NCBI RefSeq assembly: GCF_016583785.1 | Contig: NZ_NRRU01000016.1 | Span: 1-64,000 of the forward strand | DNA from: Rubrivivax gelatinosus | Lineage (GTDB): Bacteria; Pseudomonadota; Gammaproteobacteria; Burkholderiales; Burkholderiaceae_C | Length of the DNA: 64,000 bases | Direction of reading: 5' to 3' | Shown here: piece after piece, positions 42,884-48,200 of the stretch | Layout: every line of letters begins with the position of its first letter | Numbering within the stretch: position 1 is the first letter of the stretch | Translations under genes and position numbers: made by a program | Notes under the pieces: model-generated | What the model saw: only the letters and a program-made list of their open reading frames with translations | What the model was told of the DNA's origin: nothing | Database searches by the model: none

Positions 42884-43798
42884 TCAGCGCGCCGCCAGGT
42901 CGACGACGACCCCGGCGAAGACCGCGAAGCCCACCCAGTGGTTGACGCGGAAGGCGCGAAAGCAGCCGTCGCGGCTGCGCTCGCGGATCATCGTCCAGTG
43001 CCACAGCGCCTGCGCTGCGGCTGCGGCAATGCCCAGCAGGAAGACCGAACCGAGACCCAGCGACAGGCCGACAACGGCCCAGATCGCCAGGAACAGGCCG
43101 TAGAAGGCCATCACGCCGACGACGTCCAGCCGGCCGAGCGTGATCGCCGAGGTCTTGATGCCGATGCGCAGGTCGTCGTCGCGGTCGACCATCGCGTACT
43201 CGGTGTCGTAGGCCAGCACCCAGAACAGGTTGCCCAGCAGCAGCCACCACGCGGCCGGCGGCACCGCGGCGAAGTTCCATTCCTGCCCGCCCTGCGCGGC
43301 CGCGAACGCCATCGGGATGCCGAAGCTGAAGGCCACGCCCAGCACCGCCTGCGGCATCGACACGAAACGTTTGGCGTAGGGGTAGACCAGCGTCACCGCC
43401 AGCCCGAAGAAGGACAGCAGGATCGTCGGCGGGTTGGTCGTCAGCACCAGCAGGAACGAGACGAAGGCCAGCGCCGCGCCGACGCCCAGCGCGTCGGGCA
43501 CACCGAGCGCGCCGCTGGTCACCGGGCGCTGCGCGGTGCGTTTGACGTGGCGGTCGAACTCGCGGTCGGCGACGTCGTTGATGCAGCAGCCGGCGCTGCG
43601 CATCAGCACCGTGCCCAGCGTGAAGACGGCGATCAGGTGCAGACCGGGGAAGCCGTCGGCGGCGATCCACAGCGCCGCCAGCGTCGGCCACAGCAGCAGC
43701 AGCCAGCCGGCCGGGCGGTCCCAGCGGATCAGGTCCAGGTAGAGATTGAAGCGGCGCGCGGCGATCACGGCGGCGATTATCCGGTGAGCGCCCGGCAT
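42884..43798 (-). CDS. ubiA: 4-hydroxybenzoate polyprenyltransferase
   Basis: 304 residues with about eight membrane helices. Both Asp-rich prenyl-diphosphate motifs are present: [12 protein letters not shown] and [12 protein letters not shown]. It joins the polyprenyl chain to 4-hydroxybenzoate in ubiquinone synthesis. The ATG at 43798 has no ribosome site and lies 5 nt from the LexA box; a GTG at 43768, just before the conserved [15 protein letters not shown], is an alternative start. Confidence 0.93.
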
Positions 43799-43803
43799 GG
43801 AAA

Positions 43804-43819
43804 CTGTATATTCATACAG
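43804..43819. promoter_or_regulatory. LexA (SOS) box
   Basis: CTGTATATTCATACAG has the CTGT-N8-ACAG core of proteobacterial SOS boxes; with flanks, 16 of 20 positions equal the E. coli consensus palindrome. It ends one base before the ATG of the radical-SAM gene and lies 5 bases before the ubiA ATG on the other strand. A -10-like TATATT sits inside it, so bound LexA would block transcription. The lack of a ribosome site suggests a leaderless message for the repair genes. Confidence 0.85.
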
Positions 43820-43820
43820 C

Positions 43821-45080
43821 ATGGATCTGATCCGCAAGCTCGCCATCCTCGCCGACGCCGCCAAGTACGACGCGTCCTGCGCCAGCAGCGGTGCCGCCCC
43901 GCGCGACTCGCGTGGCGGGCGCGGCATCGGCTCGACCGCGCCCATGGGCATCTGCCACAGCTTCACGCCCGACGGCCGCTGCGTGTCGCTGCTCAAGCTG
44001 CTGCTGACCAACTACTGCGTCTACGACTGCCTCTACTGCGTCAACCGCGTCAGCAGCAACGTGCCGCGCGCACGTTTCCGCATCGACGAGGTCGTCGCGC
44101 TGACGCTGGACTTCTACCGCCGCAACTGCATCGAGGGCCTGTTCCTCAGCTCGGGCATCGTGCGCAGCCCCGACCACACGATGGAGCAGCTGGTCGAGGT
44201 GGCGCGCCGGCTGCGCGAGGATCACGACTTCCGCGGCTACATCCACCTGAAGACCATCCCCGATGCCAGCCCCGGGCTGCTGGCCGCCGCCGGCCGCCAC
44301 GCCGACCGCCTCAGCCTGAACGTCGAGCTGCCGACGGCGCAAGGCCTGGCGACGCTGGCGCCGCAGAAGGACGCGCTGGCGATCCGCGGCGCGATGGGCC
44401 GGCTGCACCAGCGCATCGAGGACGCCAAGGACGCGGCGCGCGAACGCCCCCCGGTCTCTCTGCCCGGCGCCCCGCCCCGGCGGGCGCCGCCGCCGCGTTT
44501 TGCGCCCGGCGGCCAGAGCACGCAGATGATCGTCGGCGCCGACGCCAGCGACGACCGCAGCATCATCAGCACCGCCGCGACGCTGTACCGCGACTACCGG
44601 CTGCGCCGCGTCTACTACTCGGCCTTCAGCCCGATCCCCGACGCCGCACGGGCGCTGCCGCCGGTGGCGCCGCCGCTGGCGCGCGAGCACCGGCTGTACC
44701 AGGCCGACTGGCTGGTGCGCTTCTACGGTTTCGGCCATGACGAGATCGTCACCGGCAGCGACGGCATGCTGGTGCTCGAGCACGACCCCAAGCTCGCCTG
44801 GGCGCTGGCGCACCGCGAACGTTTCCCGGTCGACCTGAACACCGCGCCGCGCGAGCTGCTGCTGCGCGTGCCCGGGCTGGGCGTACGCACCGTCGAGCGC
44901 CTGCTGGTGGCGCGGCACGGCCGCCGCCTGCGCCACGCCGACCTGAAGGCGCTGCGGGTGCCGCTGGCCAAGGCCCTGCCCTTCGTCGTGCTCGCCGACC
45001 ACCGGCCCGGCAAGGTGCCCGACGCCGCCGCACCGCGGCCGGCGCAGCAGCTCGGGCTGTTCGACGCGGCGCCGGCATGA
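43821..45080 (+). CDS. Putative DNA modification/repair radical SAM protein (UDG-linked)
   Basis: 419 residues of the rSAM_link_UDG type. The start [20 protein letters not shown] matches the family. The 4Fe-4S cluster that binds SAM is held by C66, C70 and C73 (CVYDCLYC). After the barrel, a Pro/Arg-rich insert lies at about residues 205-235. A C-terminal helix-hairpin-helix ([20 protein letters not shown]) is expected to bind DNA. The reaction is not known. It is preceded by a LexA box and followed by the DUF4130-UdgX gene, its usual genomic partner. An in-frame ATG at 43797 would place the LexA box inside the gene and is disfavoured. Confidence 0.9.
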
Positions 45081-45178
45081 AAGCCATGTCTCATGCCCGC
45101 TCGCCGGAACCGGCCGGGCGGGCGGCGGGTGCACGACGGACGCTGCCGGCGGGTCCGGCGCTCATTTGCCCGGCAGCA

Positions 45179-45200
45179 CGGGCCGACTGGCCCGAGGAGT
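45179..45200 (+). promoter_or_regulatory. Hairpin beside the ribosome site of the DUF4130-UdgX gene
   Basis: CGGGCC-GACT-GGCCCG forms a 6-bp tetraloop hairpin at 45179-45194, running into the ribosome site GAGGAG (45194-45199) before the GTG start at 45205. The hairpin could limit ribosome access. This is an observation only. Confidence 0.3.
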
Positions 45201-45204
45201 GCAG

Positions 45205-46740
45205 GTGAGCCGGGTCGAACTCGCGCACGAGGCCGACTTTGACGGCTTTCGCGCCGCCGCTCGCCGGCTGCTCGCGGCCGGCACACCGCCCGAAGCCATC
45301 GCCTGGAGCGTGGCCGGCGGCGCCGACGCCGACCTCTTCGCTGCCGAACCGGCGCCCGCGCCGGCCTGGCCCGACGCGCCGCCGCTGGCCGCGCCGGCAG
45401 CCTTCGTGGCACTCGCGTCGGACGTCGTGCAGCACGCCGACCCGGCGCGTTTCACGCTGCTGTACCGGCTGCTGTGGCGGCTGCAGCGCGAGCCGGCGCT
45501 GCGCCGCGACCCGCTGGACGCCGACCGGCATCGCGCCGCGGCGATGGCGCAGGCGGTGCGGCGCGAGCAGCACCACATGGAGGCTTTCGTGCGCTTCCGC
45601 GGCTTCACCGACGCCGACGACCAGCCCTGGCAGGCCGCCTGGTACGAGCCGGCGCACCACGTGGTCGACGCCGTCGCGCCCTTCTTCGCGCGCCGCTTCG
45701 CGACGCTGCGCTGGTGCCTGCTGACGCCGCGGCGCAGCGCGCGCTGGGACGGCGCGCAGCTGAGCTTCGGCCCCGGCGCACGGCGCGAGGACGCACCCGG
45801 CGCCGACGCCGGCGAAGCGCTCTGGCTGACCTATTACGCCAGCACCTTCAACCCGGCGCGGCTGAACACCCGGGCGCTGGACCAGCACCTGCCGCGGCGC
45901 CATCGCGAGCTGCTGCCCGAGGCGGCGCTGATCCCGACGCTGACGGCGCAGGCCGGCGCGCGCACCCAGGTGATGCTGGCCTGCCCGCCCAGCGCTGCAG
46001 CACGGCGCTTGCCGGCTGCGGCGAGGGCGCCGCGACCTGAGTTCGAACCGGAGGCGCCGGTCGGGCAGCTCCTGCCCACCGCCAACGGCTCCGCCGGGAT
46101 GATCACGCCGGTGCCGCCCGCCTCCGACCGGCCCGCGCGCCGCATCGCGCTCGAATCGCAGCGCGAGGCCGCCTCGGCCTGCCGCGACTGCGCGCTGGGT
46201 GCGCTCGCGACGCAGACCGTCTTCGGCGAAGGCCCGCTGGACCCACCGCTGATGCTGGTCGGCGAACAGCCCGGCGACCTGGAAGACCACCAGGGCCGGC
46301 CCTTCGTCGGCCCGTCGGGGCAGCTGCTCGAGCGCGCGCTCGCCGCGCTCGGCTGGGAGCGCTCCGTCGCCTACGTCAGCAACGCCGTCAAACACTTCAA
46401 GTACGAGCTGCGTGGCAGGCGCCGGATGCACAAGACGCCGGCGCAGCACGAAGCCGACGCCTGCCGGCACTGGCTCGAAGCCGAGATCGCGCTCGTGCGG
46501 CCGCAAGCCGCGATCGCGCTCGGCGCCACCGCGGCGCGCCAGCTGCTCGGCCGCCCGGTCGCCGTGATGCAGGAACGCGGCCGCTGGCTCAGGCGCGACG
46601 ACGGCCTGCCGGTGCTGGTGACGCTGCATCCTGCCGCGCTGCTGCGCGGCGACCCGGCCGAACGCGAGACGGCGTGGGCCGCCTGGCTGGACGATCTGCG
46701 CGCCGCCGACCCGGTGGCGCGCGGCGGCGCGCTGCCGTGA
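45205..46740 (+). CDS. DUF4130 - UdgX fusion, uracil-DNA glycosylase superfamily
   Basis: 511 residues from a GTG with GAGGAG upstream. The N-terminal half (about 1-250) is the DUF4130 / SAM_7_link domain, with EQHHMEAFVRFRGF and WYEPAHHVVDAVAPFFARRF. The C-terminal half (about 310-511) is a UdgX-type glycosylase: GEQPGDLEDHQGRPFVGPSG (from 353), NAVKHFKYE, the loop GRRRMHKTP with His409, and LVTLHPAALLR. In UdgX the equivalent His bonds covalently to uracil-excised DNA and stays attached. Cys pairs in ACRDC and DACRHW fit the Fe-S cluster. DUF4130 and UdgX are often separate genes; here they are one chain. The stop overlaps the AlkB-like start (GTGA). Confidence 0.92.
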   Translation: MSRVELAHEADFDGFRAAARRLLAAGTPPEAIAWSVAGGADADLFAAEPAPAPAWPDAPPLAAPAAFVALASDVVQHADPARFTLLYRLLWRLQREPALRRDPLDADRHRAAAMAQAVRREQHHMEAFVRFRGFTDADDQPWQAAWYEPAHHVVDAVAPFFARRFATLRWCLLTPRRSARWDGAQLSFGPGARREDAPGADAGEALWLTYYASTFNPARLNTRALDQHLPRRHRELLPEAALIPTLTAQAGARTQVMLACPPSAAARRLPAAARAPRPEFEPEAPVGQLLPTANGSAGMITPVPPASDRPARRIALESQREAASACRDCALGALATQTVFGEGPLDPPLMLVGEQPGDLEDHQGRPFVGPSGQLLERALAALGWERSVAYVSNAVKHFKYELRGRRRMHKTPAQHEADACRHWLEAEIALVRPQAAIALGATAARQLLGRPVAVMQERGRWLRRDDGLPVLVTLHPAALLRGDPAERETAWAAWLDDLRAADPVARGGALP

Positions 46741-47363
46741 ACACGCCGCTGTCGACGGCGCAGCCCGACCTCTTCGGCAGCGCCGGACTGCTGCCGCCGG
46801 GTTTCGTCTTCACGCCCGACTTCGCCACGCCGGCCGAGGAAGCGGCGCTGATCGACCTGGCCGCGACGCTGCCGTTTGCCGAGGCGCGCTACCACCAGTA
46901 CACGGCGCGCCGACGGGTCGTCGCCTGGGGCTCGGCGCGGCACGAGGTCGGCGCCGACGAGCCGAACCGGCGGCCGCTGCACGAGCTGCCGCCGGCGCTG
47001 GCCACGCTGCGCACGCGGCTCGCGGCCTGGGCCGGCCTGGCGGCGGAGGAGATCGTGCAGGTGCTGATGTCCGAGTACCGCCCCGGCACGCCGCTGGGCT
47101 GGCACCGCGACGCGCCGCAGTACGAGCTGATCGCCGGTGTCTCGCTCGGCGGCCCGGCGCGGCTGCGGCTGCGGCCCTGGCCGCCGGAAAGCGGCAGCCG
47201 CGACGACGTCATCAGCCTGGACCTGGCGCCGCGTTCGGCCTACCGGATGAGCGGCCCGGCGCGCTGGGGCTGGCAGCACGGGCTGCCGCCGGTGCCGGCG
47301 TTACGCTGGTCGGTGACGATGCGCAGCGCGCGAGCGAGCGCGATCAGGCCGTCAGCAGGTTGA
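46737..47363 (+). CDS. AlkB-like 2-oxoglutarate/Fe(II) dioxygenase
   Basis: 208 residues from a GTG overlapping the UdgX stop by 4 nt, so translation is coupled. Iron ligands are the H-x-D of LGWHRDAPQYE and the distal His in WGWQHGLPP; the 2-oxoglutarate Arg pair is in RWSVTMR. A PDLFG segment in the N-terminal tail is typical of AlkB proteins. It probably removes alkyl lesions from DNA or RNA by oxidation. As third gene downstream of a LexA box it is likely SOS-induced rather than Ada-controlled. The 3' end overlaps the convergent vapC by 20 nt. Confidence 0.88.
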   Translation: MNTPLSTAQPDLFGSAGLLPPGFVFTPDFATPAEEAALIDLAATLPFAEARYHQYTARRRVVAWGSARHEVGADEPNRRPLHELPPALATLRTRLAAWAGLAAEEIVQVLMSEYRPGTPLGWHRDAPQYELIAGVSLGGPARLRLRPWPPESGSRDDVISLDLAPRSAYRMSGPARWGWQHGLPPVPALRWSVTMRSARASAIRPSAG

Positions 47364-47847
47364 TCAGCGCGCGAGCACTGCGGTCGCGGTAGACGTCGAA
47401 GTCGGAATCGACCGACAGCAGGTGGCGGATCTTCAGCCGTGCCGCGGCTTCGGCGATCGACGCGTCGGCGAGGTCGAACGGCAGGTCGGCAAACCGTTCG
47501 CTGATCGCCAGCACCTCGGCCAGCGACACCGCCTGCGGCGTGTCGACGACGACGGCGCCGCGCTGCACCCAGCGCAGGAAGTCGATTGCGGCTGCGCTGG
47601 CGATGCGGCGCGACAGCAGCGCCGTCACCTCGTTCAGCACCGGCCAGGTGCTGATCAGCTGCGCCTCGCGGTTGGCCGCCAGCCAGTCGCGTGTGCGCGC
47701 GTGCCAGGCGTCGCGCCGATTCATCAGCGCCAGCAGCGGCCCGCTGTCGACCAGCACCGGCCCGCGGTGCGGCAGCAACGGCGGCGGCGGTGGTTCCTGG
47801 GCCGCCACCGCAGCCGCGGCGGCCGATCGCGGCTTAGACGCTGCCAT
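47344..47847 (-). CDS. vapC: PIN-domain ribonuclease toxin (VapC type)
   Basis: 167 residues. A low-complexity Ala/Pro N-terminus (1-28) precedes a PIN domain with the acidic residues at VDSGPLLALM, LNEVTALL, DLADASIAEAA and SVDSDFD. These form the Mg2+ site that cuts RNA. It overlaps the antitoxin gene by 14 nt. The extended N-terminus is unusual; an internal start near LVDSGP is conceivable. Confidence 0.83.
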   Translation of the reverse strand: MAASKPRSAAAAAVAAQEPPPPPLLPHRGPVLVDSGPLLALMNRRDAWHARTRDWLAANREAQLISTWPVLNEVTALLSRRIASAAAIDFLRWVQRGAVVVDTPQAVSLAEVLAISERFADLPFDLADASIAEAAARLKIRHLLSVDSDFDVYRDRSARALINLLTA

Positions 47848-48103
47848 CGAGCCCGCGGCGCTTGTCGGCCCAGACCTCGGCCGCGTGTTCCCGGTGCCGG
47901 CCGGACAGATCGGCCGGGCCTTCGTAGCGTCCGAACAGCTCGGCGCCCAACTCGTAGGCCGACGGCGGCGCGGCCGCCTCGCCGGCGTCCAGGTAACAGA
48001 CCAGCGCGGCGCGGATCACATCGCTGGTGCTGCGCTTGCTGCGCTGGGCGCTGTCGCGCAGGCGCTGTTCGAGCGCGGCGTCGAGCTTGACGGTGACGGT
48101 CAT
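47834..48103 (-). CDS. vapB: Ribbon-helix-helix antitoxin for the adjacent PIN toxin
   Basis: 89 residues. The N-terminus MTVTVKLDAALEQRLRDSAQ followed by RSTSDVIRAALVCYL is a ribbon-helix-helix DNA-binding domain. The C-terminal 45 residues, polar and rich in Tyr, Gly and Arg, would wrap the toxin. A perfect palindrome lies 27-43 nt upstream, a probable autoregulation site. Possible other name: CopG-family antitoxin. Confidence 0.82.
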   Translation of the reverse strand: MTVTVKLDAALEQRLRDSAQRSKRSTSDVIRAALVCYLDAGEAAAPPSAYELGAELFGRYEGPADLSGRHREHAAEVWADKRRGLDGSV

Positions 48104-48129
48104 GGTGCTCGCCCGGGATCAGGAAATAC

Positions 48130-48146
48130 GCAGCGTATTACGCTGC
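48130..48146. promoter_or_regulatory. Palindromic operator upstream of vapBC
   Basis: GCAGCGTA-T-TACGCTGC is a perfect 8+8 palindrome around one central base. It overlaps -10-like AT-rich sequence reading toward vapB. Position and symmetry fit binding of a dimeric RHH antitoxin or the VapBC complex. Confidence 0.6.
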
Positions 48147-48165
48147 ATCCACAAGCGTCAAGCGA

Positions 48166-48195
48166 GCAGCCCCGGGGCGCAGCACCTGGGGCTGC
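48166..48195 (-). terminator. Hairpin after prfC
   Basis: GCAGCCCC and GGGGCTGC form an 8-bp stem with a 14-nt loop, starting 6 nt beyond the prfC stop. No T run follows, so it may be a 3'-end stabiliser or part of a Rho-dependent end rather than an intrinsic terminator. Confidence 0.35.
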
Positions 48196-48200
48196 GCTGA

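Follow-up and report, generated by a model that had tools for sequence, protein, structure and literature searches.

A window of 64,000 nucleotides (nt) of Rubrivivax gelatinosus DNA, i.e., the whole stretch analysed here (contig NZ_NRRU01000016.1), contains three co-oriented genes for a radical SAM (rSAM) protein, a DUF4130-UdgX fusion and an AlkB-type dioxygenase, lying behind an exact LexA (SOS) box. The explanation considered best, with a probability of roughly 0.55, is that of a LexA-induced operon of lesion enzymes which would act in parallel and be delivered to the beta sliding clamp. The window holds a real LexA-controlled operon of an already printed kind, the addition of AlkB at its 3' end being unseen in the other 122 loci compared. 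What is new is, on the one hand, the conserved clamp-type motif of the rSAM family and, on the other hand, the repeated entry of AlkB into LexA-linked settings.

Organisation of the Operon

The LexA box CTGTATATTCATACAG (43804..43819, forward strand) ends 1 nt ahead of the ATG (43821) of the first gene (43821..45080, forward strand), whose product belongs to the rSAM_link_UDG family TIGR03916, with 523.9 bits against a curated cut-off of 343.5 and the CxxxCxxC motif present (C66-x3-C70-x2-C73, 44016..44039, in 119/119 aligned rows). After a spacing of 124 nt, a second forward-strand gene with a GTG start (45205..46740) encodes a protein of 511 amino acids (aa), in which a DUF4130/TIGR03915 domain (aa 8-240, 45226..45924; 189.3 bits, cut-off 112.25) is fused to a UdgX domain (TIGR03914, aa 243-500, 45931..46704; 253.5 bits, cut-off 189.95). 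The latter shares with UdgX of M. smegmatis the GEQPGD motif A, the R-loop histidine and 48-50% identity to its structures (6AIL and related), H409 (codon 46429..46431) being aligned with His109, the residue cross-linking DNA (PMC10359453); it differs in its fusion to DUF4130 and in that its gene follows that of an rSAM protein in a LexA-boxed operon. The third gene (46737..47363, forward strand, GTG start) overlaps the second by 4 nt (46737-46740, GTGA). Its product matches PF13532 (56.8 bits over 31.2) and keeps H123, D125 (HRD), H181, R190 and R196, the pattern of AlkB-type Fe(II)/2-oxoglutarate dioxygenases being HxD...H...R(x5)R. While this protein has no NCBIfam match and a single-sequence PDB search with it returned nothing at E 0.001, its profile matches AlkB and ALKBH structures. 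The first-pass annotation had read in this DNA a near-consensus SOS box, three co-oriented genes with a 4-nt overlap and the same three families, all of which holds, the box even being an exact CTGT-N8-ACAG.

Control by LexA

A bare match to CTGT-N8-ACAG is weak evidence, because shuffling alone expects 0.45 in 64 kb; the box is the sole exact one in the window, and the whole genome holds 15 exact sites, with the reversed pattern occurring 10 times. Of the 14 other exact sites, 9 fall within called frames. What renders the box at 43804-43819 meaningful is its position together with its conservation. Elsewhere in the genome, the one LexA match has a one-mismatch box CTGTATTTTCATCCAG upstream, and exact boxes also precede a PA0069-type radical SAM gene and dnaE2, the latter on a different contig and behind its own box.

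Conservation was followed over 123 loci of the rSAM family, window included, four pairs of which represent one protein twice. In a sample of 150 genomes of the same family, 28 had a match, and all but the genome under study, i.e., 27, contributed 28 stretches. Of 60 genomes of the genus, six had a match (4/60 over the cut-off), and four of these contributed five stretches, the own locus and a short match being left out. To these were added nine further loci from 369 genomes of the class (11 over the cut-off) and 80 named loci, i.e., the best 80 of 580 relatives. Boxes were sought from 200 nt upstream to 60 nt downstream of each rSAM start. In the beta-type set, namely the 35 named loci left after removing alphaproteobacteria and Xanthomonadales by title (L105 being titled only Proteobacteria), CTGT-N8-ACAG is exact in 20 and has one mismatch in 11 (31/35); the 28 loci of the family sample give 18 exact and 8 with one mismatch. 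For comparison, random 260-nt windows drawn from all these loci, true sites left in, contain it exactly in 24/3000 and within one mismatch in 145/3000 cases. As for loci titled alphaproteobacteria, 24 of 25 exhibit an exact GTTC-N7-GTTC or GAAC-N7-GAAC (25 of 26 with L168, whose title lacks a class and which was assigned after its box was seen), against 9/3000 and 8/3000 exact in the same control. GTTC-N7-GTTC is described as the LexA motif of alphaproteobacteria (PMC8565304). A site changing with the LexA type of the host is good evidence for LexA control. With boxes of the host's type conserved ahead of the relatives' genes, the control of the operon by LexA, as initially proposed, is strongly supported by sequence comparison.

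A Constant Pair and an Optional Glycosylase

A DUF4130 gene follows the rSAM gene in 121 of the 123 loci, within 350 nt in 117 of them. The exceptions without it, L083 and L084, have truncated rSAM genes, L084 lying at a contig end. Across the 121 DUF4130 loci, UdgX is fused in 77, sits on its own in the next frame in 3 and is missing from 41. An rSAM tree of 113 rows, from which 10 of the 123 loci were excluded for being broken, repeated or of unusual length, requires no fewer than 12 switches between these conditions. The core of the operon is therefore rSAM and DUF4130, with UdgX optional, and UdgX as an obligate partner of rSAM was rejected on its absence from those 41 loci. In a fold search with the DUF4130-UdgX protein, the best 50 matches were to the uracil-DNA glycosylase (UDG) superfamily and little else, which leaves the DUF4130 fold unplaced.

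In the sister species G172, the locus is likewise surrounded by proC, ubiA and prfC, but encodes a DUF4130 protein of 278 aa, after which prfC follows. A block of the window comprising the UdgX domain, alkB and a toxin-antitoxin-like pair (45989..48200) has no counterpart there, 63 nt standing in its place. UdgX being present in G166, the next relative on the rSAM tree, it is simpler to assume that G172 has lost it; AlkB may either have been lost at this locus or never have arrived.

The fusion of UdgX to DUF4130 in 77/121 loci bears on an explanation in which the rSAM/DUF4130 pair would resolve or prevent the covalent UdgX-DNA complex, UdgX being the client. UdgX adducts do need a resolving step, for which RecA-dependent pathways or proteases have been proposed (PMC10359453). 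Still, rSAM-DUF4130 operons exist without UdgX (41/121) and, conversely, UdgX occurs without rSAM-DUF4130 in the 13.5 kb examined for each of the genomes G981 and G1049, which makes this explanation very improbable, indeed the least probable of those considered here.

A Clamp-Type Motif at the C-Terminus of the Radical SAM Protein

Within the last 15 aa, 111 of 120 rSAM tails display a clamp-type motif, taken as Qxx[LMI][FL] or Q[LMAI]x[LFM]x[FL] (L062, L083 and L084 dropped). The same patterns are found in 16/2593 other long open frames of the same loci, 61/3189 internal rSAM 15-mers and 1195/24000 shuffled tails. The motif, Q-x-x-L-F or a six-residue form, is preceded by a variable linker and reads QLGLF in the window (aa 410-414 of 419; 45048..45062, forward strand), the same QLGLF as at the C-terminus of E. 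coli Pol II. Over the 119 rows of the alignment, Q410 is found in 118 and F414 in 113, while at position 413 L occurs 97 times and F 21 times; Q410 and F414 nearly match the catalytic cysteines in conservation. Records matching the family in a phage collection numbered ten, three of which were examined: an Acinetobacter phage record ends in QLSLGF, and two gut phage records show a terminal QLRFDF and a QLSFF that is followed by a longer tail. The printed consensus for clamp binding is Q[aliphatic]x[LM][FL] or a six-residue form (PMC13254535), and QLGLF satisfies its strict version Q[LIVA]x[LM][FL].

Literature searches brought up no account of radical SAM proteins with a clamp-binding motif, nor any on UdgX together with radical SAM proteins. 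Such a near-invariant C-terminal motif suggests that the workplace of the rSAM protein is replicating DNA at the sliding clamp. It also makes the lesion treated by the rSAM/DUF4130 pair searchable by pull-down or mutant phenotype, no described substrate having been found for TIGR03916/DUF4130, a widespread SOS-linked pair.

Beside C66, C70 and C73, the cysteines C20, C45 and C54 are invariant in 119/119 rows. The best fold matches of the predicted rSAM model (mean pLDDT 72.4; residues 15-57, where these three cysteines lie, below 50) include MiaB and lipoyl synthase, both bearing a second iron-sulfur cluster; a second cluster in the rSAM protein, with C20, C45 and C54 as possible ligands, is at best a fair guess. 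By eye, an HhH-like stretch is present near the C-terminus, the corresponding profile matches being insignificant (ComEA-like, E 0.027; RuvA, E at least 0.14). An identity with spore photoproduct lyase (SplB) was rejected, NCBIfam giving TIGR03916 only for the window protein, with no such lyase among the listed matches to NCBIfam/Pfam, the best 20 PDB sequence matches or the best 50 fold matches.

AlkB, Rare in the Operon and Recurrent in LexA-Linked Settings

Conserved AlkB partners of the rSAM genes did not emerge from the comparison of neighbourhoods. Within the fetched stretches, AlkB was seen in only 2/123 rSAM loci, namely the window, where it is part of the operon, and G056, where it follows DUF4130-UdgX only after some 2.4 kb and two opposite-strand genes (from rough gene calling). 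This G056 locus (L062) has its rSAM gene broken across frames and contains a further UdgX gene, located between DUF4130-UdgX and AlkB. The rarity of AlkB is not due to missing sequence, as 118/121 loci offer at least 1 kb past the DUF4130 gene, and a conserved rSAM-UdgX-AlkB triad was rejected since AlkB is in the operon in 1/123 loci, the window only, an outcome which the first-pass annotation had itself named as speaking against its reading. Genomes with such an AlkB are likewise few: 1/60 in the genus sample (E at most 1e-8; own genome only), 11/150 (1e-8) and 32/399 (1e-20) in the family, in overlapping draws, and 9/349 in the order (1e-20), all counts including the own genome.

Thirty-eight AlkB places were examined, i.e., the window and 37 others, a fragment (L202) and three places without locus being excluded. 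In six of them, an exact LexA box heads the AlkB gene or its likely operon: the window, G146, G069, G981, G1049 and G1111. In G146, the boxed series runs imuA, a frame in the imuB position, dnaE2 and alkB last (ImuA 202 bits, dnaE2 1492 bits). The frames so placed in L186 and L193 had no hit in Pfam or NCBIfam at the applied thresholds, and the label imuB is therefore positional for them. In G069, alkB is divergent from imuA with one box common to both, and in G1111 it has its own exact box. G981 and G1049 both show the order box, helicase gene, alkB. The helicase scanned in G981 and G122 matches Pfam DEAD_2 and Helicase_C_2 and falls below the NCBIfam rad3 and DinG cut-offs, the assignment in G1049 relying solely on location and initial codons. 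Boxes with one mismatch stand upstream of AlkB in G122, G1140 (divergent from imuA) and G942, and are weak singly because 145/3000 random windows hold one within one mismatch; another in G964, at -273, was left out of the count. In all, a box is found at 9/38 AlkB places, in four genera (g1, g16, g70 and g122). In G954, alkB adjoins a dnaE2 frame seemingly cut short, with no exact box in 9 kb and a LigD-like frame following on the other strand. Moreover, a UdgX gene lies at most 1.5 kb from AlkB in 5/38 places (window, G056, G1054, G981 and G1049), UdgX being confirmed by NCBIfam in G981 and G1049. Since this kind of AlkB recurs in LexA-linked settings and near UdgX, its presence in the operon of the window does not look random.

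Several arrangements accompany these AlkB genes. In L239 and L240, an XPD/DinG-like helicase gene under a LexA box is followed by alkB, and a convergent UdgX gene faces it. Ku adjoins AlkB in L197 (G668; by NCBIfam, with LigD too) and in L243 (G984; by phmmer only), uvrA does so in G864, and a LigD-like frame is near AlkB in G1111 and G954 (by phmmer only).

The AlkB proteins also have a motif of their own. A Q..L[FL] stretch is found near the N-terminus of 33/37 relatives and of the window protein (34/38), against the first 20 aa of 17/1449 called genes, the spans differing slightly in that the stretch was placed by alignment for the AlkBs. In the window it reads QPDLF (aa 9-13; 46761..46775, forward strand). 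A literature search on AlkB, the sliding clamp and clamp-binding motifs returned no description of an AlkB N-terminal motif. A clamp-motif AlkB across LexA-linked settings suggests that some Burkholderiales have direct dealkylation under SOS control and not solely in the Ada response.

AlkB might nonetheless be an unselected hitchhiker, which came with the toxin-antitoxin-like pair and is transcribed by mere readthrough from the SOS promoter. In favour of this, the sister G172 lacks the block 45989-48200, no such AlkB was found at E up to 1e-8 in the other 59 sampled genomes of the genus, and PIN-domain-like and RelB-like small genes (VapBC-like; 47344-48103, reverse strand; weak matches, under cut-off) come directly after alkB. 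The 4-nt overlap, the intact active-site residues and the repeated LexA-linked placement in four genera speak against such a passive arrival, which we regard as unlikely.

The first-pass annotation had further proposed one pathway in which AlkB oxidation, UdgX capture and rSAM chemistry would act sequentially on the same lesion. The tight operon with its 4-nt overlap stands in favour of this proposal, as does the recurrence of AlkB near UdgX (5/38 places, two of them in one genus) and in LexA settings. What does not fit is that AlkB belongs to the operon in 1/123 rSAM loci, that UdgX is missing in 41/121 DUF4130 loci and both UdgX and AlkB in the closest sister operon (G172), and that other genomes have the same kind of AlkB next to imuA/dnaE2 or to a helicase gene. 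A single lesion pathway is accordingly held to be quite improbable, somewhat more so than the hitchhiker.

A Proposed Common Switch and Docking Site

The evidence favours parallel enzymes with a common switch and a common docking site over a fixed three-step pathway. In this LexA-repressed DNA-damage operon, rSAM and DUF4130 would form the core; in the present genome, DUF4130 is joined to UdgX and the last gene codes for an AlkB-type dealkylase. DNA damage would entail LexA cleavage and thereby expression of the operon, the box and its conservation being observed and the induction predicted from them. The rSAM protein and probably AlkB would dock on the beta sliding clamp via their QxxLF motifs, and the enzymes would work in parallel on different lesions at a stalled or translesion-synthesising fork. 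There, the rSAM/DUF4130 pair may treat a base lesion by radical chemistry, whereas UdgX, from its family, would excise uracil and cap the abasic site through H409, and AlkB, likewise from its family, would oxidatively dealkylate bases such as 1meA/3meC. The genes would be held together by a shared switch and a shared docking site, rather than by one reaction sequence.

Several points weigh against this reading. Both the induction and the binding to the clamp are deduced from sequence. The strict consensus or the six-residue form fits only 51/120 rSAM tails, and the strict five-residue consensus fits 10/34 AlkB motifs, the QPDLF of the window lying outside it. The rSAM model, of moderate confidence, gives no substrate. 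As to AlkB, 28/38 places are without box and without dnaE2 neighbour in the sequence examined, and its role alongside the other two genes may be incidental, because the operon includes it in one genome only.

More tentatively, the operon could be one instance of a LexA-induced, clamp-borne repair layer of bacteria, in which clamp-motif rSAM and AlkB enzymes would be variously combined in SOS operons with UdgX, a helicase or a translesion polymerase, direct repair of bases being thereby attempted at the fork alongside error-prone bypass. Under this view, the rSAM/DUF4130 pair would constitute a radical repair enzyme of wide distribution, recruited by the clamp. This broader view is possible, if short of probable.

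Comparison with Known Systems

Taking COG4277 to be the rSAM family TIGR03916, which is our assumption, the window resembles the COG1573-COG4277 operon in having a UDG gene and a COG4277 gene under LexA. This LexA-regulated UDG operon was printed for Bacteroidetes, with Verrucomicrobia and Alphaproteobacteria cited there (PMC8565304); no DUF4130, AlkB or clamp motif is named in the part of that paper used here, whereas the window is betaproteobacterial and has alkB added. The association of DUF4130, SplB-like radical SAM and UDG is already in print as well (PMC3765255), AlkB being absent and no rSAM clamp motif being named in the portion of text at hand. SplB and PA0069-type proteins share with the rSAM protein of the window the radical SAM family, a link to LexA and a printed connection with DNA repair (PMC3765255, PMC8565304), but in NCBIfam the window protein matches TIGR03916 only, with no spore photoproduct lyase among the listed PDB and fold matches. 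The imuA-imuB-dnaE2 cassette is LexA-controlled like the window and, in its G146 version, ends in the same kind of AlkB, whereas the operon of the window is without any imu gene. In Streptomyces venezuelae, alkB was placed in the LexA regulon by ChIP-seq and RNA-seq (PMC9380542); as far as the part of that report used here goes, it is listed alone, while alkB of the window is the last gene of an rSAM-UdgX operon. A reading of the operon as a defence system was rejected, PADLOC having given no match.

Neighbouring Genes and a Palindrome of Xanthomonadaceae

On the reverse strand, ubiA (42884..43798; TIGR01474, 298 bits) is divergent from the rSAM gene and starts 5 nt from the LexA box, which could touch both genes because it is placed in their 22-nt gap. 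At the other end, the PIN/RelB-like pair is convergent with alkB and overlaps its end by 20 nt.

At Xanthomonadaceae loci (e.g., L118, L127, L133, L213 and L214), a palindrome GTCTCA-N5-TGAGAC lies at about -39 from the rSAM start, at the place of the LexA box. The LexA box of Xanthomonas is TTAG-N6-TACTA, which was not found at the Xanthomonadaceae rSAM loci. Among the 18 such loci with upstream sequence, the palindrome is exact in 10 and has one mismatch in 6, two Luteibacter loci being without it; it is exact in 37/3000 random windows of those loci, true sites left in. Four genomes hold 11 exact sites against 0 of the reversed pattern, which precede the rSAM gene (3), uvrA (1), a PA0069 radical SAM gene (1), a DECH-box helicase gene (2) or no such gene (4). 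GTCTCA-N5-TGAGAC looks like a candidate DNA-damage operator.

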